From the NCBI GenBank assembly GCA_017935945.1, contig JAGBGN010000023.1:1-58930 (forward strand): DNA of 58,930 nt. The letters run 5' to 3'. Below, piece by piece: positions 28,765-32,131 of this stretch. Under the pieces are notes generated by a model. That model worked only from the letters and a program-made list of their open reading frames with translations. It was not told where the DNA came from and did not search any database. The position numbers were made by a program, and so were the translations under genes. Positions within the stretch are counted from its first letter, which is position 1. Each line of letters starts with the position of its first letter. The stretch comes from Candidatus Methanomethylophilaceae archaeon (GTDB lineage Archaea; Thermoplasmatota; Thermoplasmata; Methanomassiliicoccales; Methanomethylophilaceae).

Positions 28765-30117
28765 TCAGACACCCGACAGAGCCCTGAACTCCTCCTTGAA
28801 CTCGTCCGCACGCCTACGTGCAACCGAAGGGTCACGGGATTCCGAGTAAATCCTGAACTTGGGTTCCGTACCCGAGGGCCTGAGGAGGACCCACCCATCA
28901 TCATAATCGAATCTCAGACCGTCCATGCGGTTCGCATCCTCACCCTTGTGCAGTTCCGCGATATGGTCCACCATGGTCCCGAGCACACTCGGATCGCATT
29001 CTATGGCATCCTTGACCGTATGGTAGACGGGCAGGGAATCCAACTGCGAATCCAGATCCCCATCGCGTATGATGGATTCCAGCATCCTGGCCGCACCCAT
29101 GGCCCCGTCCCTGCAGAACTGATGGTCGGCGAATATCAGACCACCGTTCTCCTCGCCACCGAATATCCCTCCGTCCTCGATCATCCTGCGGGCTACGACC
29201 GGTGAACCGACGGCGGTCAGTTCTACATCGCCTCCGACTGAAGAAACGACATCCCCGACCAATGACGATGTCGCTACAGTGGTCACGACCTCGCCCGAAC
29301 CTCCGTTGGACATGACCATCCTGCGAGCCAGCAATGCCAGGCTCTTGTCCCCTGCAACATATCTACCTGACCCAGTTATGAAAACCACGCGGTCGGCATC
29401 ACCGTCATGGGCGATACCCAGGTCCGCATCGAACTCCACGACCATCCTCTTGAGGTCGGACAGGTTCTCCTCGGTCGGTTCGCTGTAATGTCCCGGGAAC
29501 ATCCCGTCCGGATTCGCATTCAGGGTGATGGTCCTGACCCCCAGTCTCCTGAGAAGCTGGGGAGTCGTGTTGACGGAAGCGCCGTTGGCACAATCCAGAC
29601 AGACGGTCAGACCTGCGGAGCGTATGGCCTCCACATCGACTTTGGAGATGACGGCATCTATGTAGTCCTCGCCTGCACCTGTGACCGATCTGACAGAACC
29701 GACATGGTCCCAGGTCGTACATGCAAGGTCGCAGTCGTATGCATCCTCTATCGCAGATTCCTCCTCATGGGAACATTCCGTACCATCCGATGAGATGCAC
29801 TTTATCCCGTTGAACTCCGGAGGGTTGTGGGACGCGGTGATCATGACACCTGCTGTGACCTCGGGATGGGTACGCACGTAATACTGCAAGGCGGGAGTGG
29901 GCACCATGCCCAGGTCGAGGACGTCGACACCCATGGACATCAGGCCCGCCGACACGGCACTGCGAACCATGTCTGAAGAAAGACGTGTATCCTTCGCTAT
30001 CGCAACGGGTCCAGGACCCATGACCTTGGCTATGGCCTTACCCACTCTGAGGGCAAGCTCGCAGTCCAGGTAGTCGTTGGCCACACCGCGTATACCGTTG
30101 GTACCGAACATCTTCAT
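28765..30117 (-). CDS. glmM: Phosphoglucosamine/phosphomannomutase
   Basis: A 450-residue alpha-D-phosphohexomutase. The phosphoserine loop is ITASHNPPEFNG near 93, the metal loop AHDGDADRVVF near 235, the sugar loop GGEENGG near 315 and the phosphate-binding loop RPSGTEPKFRIY near 415. The N-terminus MFGTNGIRGVAN is typical of archaeal GlmM/ManB enzymes. It lies 30 bases after a tandem pair of sugar-phosphate isomerase genes, which fits hexose-phosphate interconversion for sugar nucleotides or glycans. Mannose versus glucosamine preference cannot be read by eye. Confidence 0.92.
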   Translation of the reverse strand: MKMFGTNGIRGVANDYLDCELALRVGKAIAKVMGPGPVAIAKDTRLSSDMVRSAVSAGLMSMGVDVLDLGMVPTPALQYYVRTHPEVTAGVMITASHNPPEFNGIKCISSDGTECSHEEESAIEDAYDCDLACTTWDHVGSVRSVTGAGEDYIDAVISKVDVEAIRSAGLTVCLDCANGASVNTTPQLLRRLGVRTITLNANPDGMFPGHYSEPTEENLSDLKRMVVEFDADLGIAHDGDADRVVFITGSGRYVAGDKSLALLARRMVMSNGGSGEVVTTVATSSLVGDVVSSVGGDVELTAVGSPVVARRMIEDGGIFGGEENGGLIFADHQFCRDGAMGAARMLESIIRDGDLDSQLDSLPVYHTVKDAIECDPSVLGTMVDHIAELHKGEDANRMDGLRFDYDDGWVLLRPSGTEPKFRIYSESRDPSVARRRADEFKEEFRALSGV

Positions 30118-30146: not shown

Positions 30147-31142
30147 TTAATAATCGACAGGACGGTCGGAAAGCCTTTCCTTCATCAACATGACTGGTTT
30201 GACCTCGGCCGCGTCAACACCCCTCATGTCGGCCATTGTGACCGAGATGTAGTCACCCAGCATTATCGCACGGAACATGGCCTCCATCCTGCTGGATCCA
30301 CCGACGTCGATGACGGTGAAATCACGGCCGGACCCCTCCAGGACGGACATGGCTTCCCTCACGGAATCGCAGAACAGTCCCTCCCCCACAAGGAATGTCA
30401 GAGCGAACACGTCGTTTTCGGATTTGGACCAGGACCTCAGACCTGAATACTTCATTCCCGGGAGGTTATCGCAGAACGCCACGTACTTGGAGTTCTCGTT
30501 GAACTGCGTCTTCCAACGGAGGACGACAGAACGTATGCTGTTATCCGCACATATGACTGGGACATGGCACATGTAACGCGATGCCAAATCGCGGACAGGG
30601 GATCCACCCGACTCCAGGAGGTCGCGGTACTCCCTGAGCGAGGGGAGCATGGAACGTATCTCATCCGATACGCTGGGACATCCTGAGGATTCCATCACCG
30701 ACAACGTGTATCCGATCATGTACCCGATCGAGTGCCTCGGATGGAGACCCTTGGGCAACACGATGATCTGGTTGCCATCAGCCGATGCCAGACGCTCGAG
30801 AATCCCCCCGGACGTTATCACGACGATCCTGCAACCACGGCCCTTAGCCTCGTTGTACATCTCGATGGTCTCTGCGGTATTACCCGAGTAACTGGACACT
30901 ATGGCGAGTGTCCTATCGCCCACCCATATGGGGAGGCCTGGACTCTTTATCACGGACACGGGGACCTTGGAGCAATCCATGCAACAATCAAGGACGACAT
31001 CCGCGGTTATGGCGGAACCGCCCATACCGCACAATATGATGTTCTTGCAATCGGACCTTATGTTGGGATCGTATCCGAGTGTACGACCCAGATCGTCCAC
31101 GAAGTTGTGGAGCTGCTCGGCGGTGCTGATGGAATCCGGCAT
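30147..31142 (-). CDS. Bifunctional phosphoglucose/phosphomannose isomerase-like SIS protein, copy 1
   Basis: A 331-residue SIS-fold protein of the archaeal PGI/PMI family. It keeps the glycine-rich LCGMGGSAITADVV near 41, the phosphate loop SSYSGNTAETIE near 88, the RWKTQFNENSK block near 216 with its catalytic-type glutamate, and the C-terminal GDYISVTMADMRGVDAAEV region. The following block, usually PE-x-x-HNE-x-x-GW with a catalytic histidine, is PGMKYSGLRSW here, so the His and Glu are gone. The ATG overlaps the stop of copy 2 (TGATG), so the two are made together. The missing histidine may be supplied by copy 2. Confidence 0.85.
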   Translation of the reverse strand: MPDSISTAEQLHNFVDDLGRTLGYDPNIRSDCKNIILCGMGGSAITADVVLDCCMDCSKVPVSVIKSPGLPIWVGDRTLAIVSSYSGNTAETIEMYNEAKGRGCRIVVITSGGILERLASADGNQIIVLPKGLHPRHSIGYMIGYTLSVMESSGCPSVSDEIRSMLPSLREYRDLLESGGSPVRDLASRYMCHVPVICADNSIRSVVLRWKTQFNENSKYVAFCDNLPGMKYSGLRSWSKSENDVFALTFLVGEGLFCDSVREAMSVLEGSGRDFTVIDVGGSSRMEAMFRAIMLGDYISVTMADMRGVDAAEVKPVMLMKERLSDRPVDY

Positions 31143-32131
31143 CAAACCCACCTCCCTCTGGAACCGACAGCCACATCCGCCAGGATCATGCCGCGGAGGT
31201 TCTTGTACAACGGATCGGCCTTCTCACCGAGATCGATGTACATGACCGGGCGACCCTCGTTCTCCAGGATGTCGACCATGGACCCCACGATGAAATCGAG
31301 CAGCCCCGATGTCGTGGGCCCGTTGAGGACGATGATCCTCAGCTCAGGGGCATGAAGGTTAGGATCGAACCATCCCACCAGTTCGTTATGGTCGAACTCT
31401 GGAAGCTCCCCATGGAATGCCACCACCCCCCTGGAATCCAGATTGACCTTCCATCTGAGACATGCGGCCCTTACATCAGAGGTACCGTAAACAGCGGGCA
31501 TGGACCCCTCCAGATGAGCCCTTATGTCGGATACCACCTGGGATCCGGATATGGATTCCTCGAAACGTTCCAACTCATCCAACAATCCGTGGAGACGGTC
31601 CGATGCGTCGGAGAAACCTGCGGACTGCACGATGTTGCAGAGAATCGGAATCTCACAGTATGTTGCTTCCTCTGGATCCATCCCAGAAGGCAGCATGAAC
31701 ACGTCGCAACAGCAACCTTCGCAGAACCTCGCGAGGGATTCGTCCGATGTTATGCAGAACAACCTGCATCCGCGGGAGGACATCTCATCGATTATGGTCC
31801 TGACCTCCGTCTCCTCGCCGGTATAGGATACGATGATGACCACAGTACCCTCACCTACCCAACCTGGAACACGTGAATCGCTGTAGACCGGTATGGGGAC
31901 GCTCGAATGGTGGTCCGCATGACAGGATACCAGTTCCGCGGAAACACACGACTGGCCGAAAGCGAACATGCAGGCACTATCGGAACCAGGAACGGATCCG
32001 ACTTCCAAATCCAAATACCTGCGGATATGATGCGTGACATGGCTGCATGGACCCTTCGTGCCACGCGATACATCATCCAAACCATCCATATTCATCCCAT
32101 CCGAATGCGTACCGATTTCGAACACATTCAC
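31142..32131 (-). CDS. Divergent PGI/PMI-like SIS protein, copy 2
   Basis: A 329-residue paralogue of the downstream isomerase gene, much altered. The glycine-rich loop is AFGQSCVSAELV in place of GMGGSA, and the phosphate loop is VSYTGEETEV. The NEN block is replaced by RWKVNLDSRG, so the catalytic-type glutamate is lost. The next block, LPEFDHNELVGW, is fully conserved with its histidine. The C-terminus stops early (GSRGRWV) before the usual GD-x-x-S...RGVDP segment. It cannot be a normal stand-alone isomerase. Pattern and coupling to copy 1 suggest a partner subunit or a regulatory pseudoenzyme. Confidence 0.75.
   Translation of the reverse strand: MNVFEIGTHSDGMNMDGLDDVSRGTKGPCSHVTHHIRRYLDLEVGSVPGSDSACMFAFGQSCVSAELVSCHADHHSSVPIPVYSDSRVPGWVGEGTVVIIVSYTGEETEVRTIIDEMSSRGCRLFCITSDESLARFCEGCCCDVFMLPSGMDPEEATYCEIPILCNIVQSAGFSDASDRLHGLLDELERFEESISGSQVVSDIRAHLEGSMPAVYGTSDVRAACLRWKVNLDSRGVVAFHGELPEFDHNELVGWFDPNLHAPELRIIVLNGPTTSGLLDFIVGSMVDILENEGRPVMYIDLGEKADPLYKNLRGMILADVAVGSRGRWV

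Follow-up and report, generated by a model that had tools for sequence, protein, structure and literature searches.

Two adjacent paralogs of the PGI/PMI family are encoded in the window (the whole 58,930-nucleotide stretch of DNA that was analyzed, from a Candidatus Methanomethylophilaceae archaeon), and their sequences indicate that they very probably form an obligate heteromer in which they share one composite active site, derived from a homodimeric, bifunctional phosphoglucose/phosphomannose isomerase (PGI/PMI). Copy 1, an A-type paralog, is the proposed carrier of the catalytic half-site, and copy 2, a B-type paralog, is the proposed His-donating subunit. The single-chain set of Glu, His, Lys, Arg and glycine loop is complete in neither copy (residue state GGS, R, E, Y and K in copy 1; His only in copy 2), but the full catalytic residue set is present when both chains are taken together. 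Neither subunit should function without its partner.

Gene organization

The locus consists of the following features:

31142..32131, minus strand: copy 2, B-type PGI/PMI paralog
31140..31157, minus strand: translationally coupled junction, GGAGG then TGATG, where the stop of copy 2 overlaps the start of copy 1
30147..31142, minus strand: copy 1, A-type PGI/PMI paralog, with its ATG at 31142
28765..30117, minus strand: glmM-like phosphosugar mutase, 29 bp downstream of copy 1

Both open reading frames, which the initial annotation had described as overlapping at a TGATG junction, are indeed intact on the minus strand and share a single base, the A of TGATG; GGAGG stands a few bases 5' of the junction. 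The motif readings given there for both copies likewise match the sequences. The start of copy 2 is ambiguous between GTG at 32131 and an ATG approximately 12-14 codons in, and stays uncertain because residues 1-14 are predicted to be disordered. The two genes overlap or abut in most tandem pairs of the genus, and glmM adjoins the pair in most genomes of the genus, in either orientation. Copy 1 and copy 2 of the window are mutually out of frame; there is one in-frame pair (L019). Copy 2 of genome G072 (L005, 506-1591) extends some 33 codons into copy 1 until it meets a stop, unlike that of its close relative G073, and this read-through is probably an assembly indel.

Family membership and predicted fold

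Profile searches match both copy 1 (bact-PGI_C, E = 4e-25; SIS, 4e-6) and copy 2 (bact-PGI_C, 4e-12; SIS, 1e-4). PF10432 is over its cut-off in both copies, and SIS is over the Pfam cut-off in copy 1 and slightly below it in copy 2 (22.4 of 25 bits). Unlike known bifunctional PGI/PMI enzymes, both copies score under the curated NCBIfam cut-off for that family (TIGR02128, 213.9 bits), copy 1 at 195.2 bits and copy 2 at 64.8 bits. A two-SIS fold is predicted confidently in monomer models of both (pLDDT 86 and 90, pTM 0.87 and 0.89), and by structure comparison the predicted monomers resemble 1tzb and GlmS/GFAT, with 1tzb (P. aerophilum PGI/PMI) as the nearest solved structure to copy 1. The His block lies in a loop modeled with low confidence in the monomers (pLDDT about 60), which is what a segment packing against a partner would show.

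Complementary conservation of the catalytic blocks

The catalytic blocks of copy 1 (minus strand) are:

31014..31022: GGS glycine loop, residues 41-43, invariant
30876..30893: SYSGNT phosphate loop, residues 84-89, the best conserved block
30735..30737: Arg136, equivalent to P. aerophilum Arg135, invariant
30495..30497: catalytic base Glu216 of NEN, invariant
30429..30464: decayed His block LPGMKYSGLRSW, conservation rank 269 of 320
30447-30449: Tyr232 at the His position, which is V/S/D/C/I/A/E/Y in relatives
30180..30182: C-terminal catalytic Lys321, invariant, in a segment missing from copy 2

The corresponding blocks of copy 2 (minus strand) are:

31946..31963: degenerate glycine loop AFGQSC, conservation rank 191 of 322, GGS not conserved
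31433..31456: degenerate NEN block RWKVNLDS, residues 226-233, without Glu
31370..31405: LPEFDHNELVGW block, residues 243-254, the most conserved stretch of copy 2
31388-31390: codon of catalytic His248, invariant in 23 sequences

Copy 1 has the motifs GMGGSA, SYSGNT, PR and KTQFNENSK and the C-terminal Lys, with LPGMKYSGLRSW at the His block. GGS, SYSGNT, the Arg, the NEN Glu and the C-terminal Lys are kept by copy 1 in 23/23 pair-bearing genomes of the genus, and the residues invariant in the 23 copy-1 sequences include GGS, YSGNT, Arg136, Glu216, Asn217, Lys219 and Lys321. The His is gone from copy 1 in 22 of the 23, and a search of the 23 copy-1 sequences found no HNE or HNQ motif anywhere in them; the exception is G064, a close relative of the window's genome, which retains the His in an HCG rather than an HNE context.

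Copy 2 keeps LPEFDHNELVGW, all its other motifs are degenerate, and the protein ends before the Lys segment. Only 11 residues of copy 2 are invariant, five of them in the His block (Pro244, Phe246, His248, Asn249 and Trp254), and its glycine loop, Arg block and NEN block are conserved at background level only. The initial annotation had listed the NEN glutamate, the glycine loop and the C-terminal end as lost from copy 2; the last two losses stand, the C-terminal Lys and the GGS loop being the invariant ones, but loss of the Glu is not universal, as it is absent in 18/23 genomes and still present in 5/23. With 23 sequences of each copy compared, the His block holds rank 2 among 318 conservation windows in copy 2, whereas the former His block of copy 1 ranks 269 of 320; the complementary conservation of the two copies is therefore not due to chance.

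The ratio dN/dS is about 0.14-0.37 for copy 1 in close pairs (leaving out G072/G073, where the frame includes upstream read-through) and about 0.2-0.47 for copy 2, so both copies are under purifying selection and copy 2 is a maintained gene. Its greater divergence relative to copy 1 and the absence of most motifs might suggest the decaying pseudogene of a tandem duplication, but this is extremely improbable: the reading frame is intact in 23 genomes, with a coupled junction and an invariant His block, most close pairs give a dN/dS of about 0.2 to 0.3, and copy 2 is an old B paralog, no recent duplicate (see below). The pseudogene reading was rejected on the conservation data and dN/dS. It is also very unlikely that a complex forms in which the conserved block of copy 2 serves folding or the subunit interface only, and not chemistry. 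Its position in a low-confidence loop is what an interface loop would show, but the block is not conserved in copy 1, which would share that interface, and invariance in copy 2 extends beyond hydrophobic residues to the His and Asn.

Distribution and co-occurrence

The source genome (G000) belongs to the Methanomethylophilaceae, a family of methane-producing gut archaea, with named relatives that include UBA71 and several gut MAGs; most of the genomes compared are MAGs, and counts come from related genomes. The tandem pair is found in 23/31 genomes of the genus (UBA71-like), two of which (G061 and G066) have an additional intact copy as well. Two others (G056 and G069) have a single intact copy only, from another lineage, PGI/PMI genes are absent from 5/31, and in G078 copy 2 is cut at a contig end. 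With G078 cut in this way, none of the 31 genomes has one half without the other. No match to PF00342 or PF06560 was found in any of the 31, and G000 itself yielded no further known PGI and no type I PMI. The five genomes without PGI/PMI, PF00342 and PF06560 (G060, G068, G071, G076 and G079), two of them >90% complete, have no known PGI, so PGI activity may be dispensable. This possible dispensability, the His kept by copy 1 of G064 and the Glu kept by 5/23 copy-2 sequences weigh against the heteromer reading.

His-less A genes occur in 27 genomes, and the B copy is without Lys in 27/27; the initial annotation had asked whether the paired losses hold across related genomes and invariably go together, and they do in the genomes read. 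The pairs in G009, G021, G035, G044 and G097 are unlinked. No His-less A was found in the 4 genomes where B keeps its Lys, nor in the 13 without a detected B (Fisher test of His loss versus Lys loss, p = 4e-5, with kinship of the genomes ignored). Sequence comparison finds complementary catalytic residues on obligately co-occurring paralogs.

These data bear on another reading, which we judge improbable, that copy 1 is active as a His-less homodimer, with ring opening uncatalyzed or performed by another residue, and that copy 2, a pseudoenzyme bound to copy 1, acts as its regulator or as a sugar-phosphate sensor. Copy 1 does keep all residues for the isomerization step proper, and dead paralogs that activate a partner are known, e.g., in trypanosome deoxyhypusine synthase (PMC3663545). 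However, little of copy 2 is conserved beyond the catalytic His block, and the phosphate loop that a sensor would need is gone; copy 1 has no consistent substitute for the His (V, S, D, C, I, A, E or Y); and a His-less copy 1 without copy 2, which the initial annotation had named as evidence against a composite site, was found in 0/27 genomes. The composite-site reading is preferred because what copy 2 conserves is precisely the catalytic His block.

Phylogeny and order of losses

Copy 2 clusters with the B copies of seven other genera in the main tree of 165 rows (SH-aLRT 98) and in a second, mixture-model tree of 46 rows (bootstrap/SH-aLRT 99/97), and copy 1 falls within the A copies. The trees indicate that both copies stem from an old A/B duplication within the family. 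Outside the family, the signature is complete in 20/20 outgroup copies, and, across 400 genomes searched in the class, nearly always one PGI/PMI copy per genome was found.

A copies retain Arg (79/79), Glu (79/79) and, where the C-terminal end is present, Lys (77/77), with His in 52/79 and six changes of it on the 165-row tree; the reconstructed independent losses of His in A number at least five (five or six). B copies retain His (54/54), with Lys in 4/54, Glu in 36/55 and Arg in 33/55, and R, E and K have been lost repeatedly among them on the same tree. The loss in B appears to precede the loss of His in A, since most genomes of g8, g9 and g14 pair a Lys-less B with a His-intact A. In genus g12 (L051 of G094, L065 of G089) there is a third A copy, divergent but intact-looking, and the other A copies of g12 still have the His, in a decaying context (HGDFEGM, HMGVDGM) that may represent the beginning of His-block loss. 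One PGI/PMI gene of the family (L045, 1293-2312, in G014) has a TAG codon in frame that is probably translated as pyrrolysine; the PGI/PMI gene AR505_0560 of ISO4-H5 has an amber codon (PMC5011839).

Proposed mechanism of the split active site

The catalytic His of P. aerophilum PGI/PMI and of rabbit PGI reportedly acts in trans, and a search of open literature found no paper that identifies His219 of P. aerophilum as a residue acting in trans. GFAT-1 was found to be homologous to PGI/PMI by family profile and by fold, and the active site of the human enzyme comprises Lys558, Glu561 and Lys676 of one monomer and His577* of the other (PMC7000685). The spacing from Glu to His is 16 residues in both GFAT-1 and the PGI/PMI family, including that from Glu216 of copy 1 to position 232. 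Alignment of PGI/PMI with GlmS by hhalign is significant, but the Glu/His block is unregistered in the global alignment, so the equivalence of the GFAT-1 His rests on the equal spacing and the published structure.

In the ancestral homodimer, each site would have combined the Glu, Lys, Arg and phosphate loop of one subunit with the ring-opening His of the other. In the pair, the whole cis half would come from copy 1 and the trans His from copy 2, so that a heterodimer would contain two sites, one composite and working, the other dead. GFAT-1 geometry predicts the observed partition, in which His alone comes from one subunit, and from this partition, together with the sequences, their conservation, co-occurrence and phylogeny, we infer a physical complex, its activity and substrate, and a heterodimeric stoichiometry with one composite site; the PGI/PMI substrate is assumed from family membership. 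It is homology to GFAT-1 that suggests that the two halves meet in one interface site, and the composite site first proposed in the initial annotation gains support from the fit of the residue partition to the trans-His geometry (PMC7000685).

The split would have proceeded stepwise after the old A/B duplication, with B losing first its Lys and later its Glu, Arg and glycine loop. Loss of Lys in B would kill the only site served by the His of A, and this His would then be free to drift. The dead B site would explain both the order and the direction of the losses.

Loss of GlmS and a possible aminating role

Full-length GlmS is encoded in 9/102 genomes of the family and 0/31 of the genus, and in 8/8 sampled genomes that belong to other families of the order. 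The glmM gene has been kept beside the PGI/PMI pair despite the loss of GlmS. Because GlmS is lost in most of the family and glmM is adjacent, it is conceivable, though unlikely, that the heteromer is no longer only a PGI/PMI and converts fructose-6-phosphate and ammonia to glucosamine-6-phosphate, which would supply the neighboring glmM product. If so, complementary decay would have produced a composite SIS enzyme with a new role.

Comparison with known systems

Bifunctional PGI/PMI enzymes (TIGR02128; P. aerophilum 1tzb) belong to the same family, with SIS and bact-PGI_C domains, but the known members are single-gene homodimers with the full signature in each subunit, whereas here the signature is split over two genes. 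The isomerase domain of GlmS/GFAT has a homologous two-SIS fold, a Glu/His/Lys triad with equal Glu-to-His spacing, and a trans His (PMC7000685), but differs in being a single-gene homodimer fused to a glutaminase domain. The closest functional parallel of the proposed heteromer is the galactose-6-phosphate isomerase LacAB of the RpiB/LacAB superfamily, in which two paralogous subunits form one interface active site and the homodimeric relative RpiB has two (PMC3755991); LacAB is of an unrelated fold family and acts on another substrate. A second parallel is the trypanosomatid deoxyhypusine synthase DHSc/DHSp, an impaired enzyme and a dead paralog that are fully active only together, which differs in being another enzyme, a heterotetramer, and described as allosteric activation (PMC3663545). 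No report of a split PGI/PMI was found in a search of mostly open-access literature.

We know of no previous obligate heteromer with a divided catalytic site in the PGI/PMI family, and the split pair would be, to our knowledge, the first such enzyme. Motif-based annotation would label both genes inactive. Living relatives preserve the steps of its proposed origin, from a single intact gene in the outgroup through two intact genes, an intact A accompanied by a Lys-less B, and loss of His from A, to coupled tandem genes in which B is no more than a His donor. With loss of His in A recurrent and seen only where B is without Lys, this series provides a direct test of a ratchet from homodimer to obligate heterodimer.
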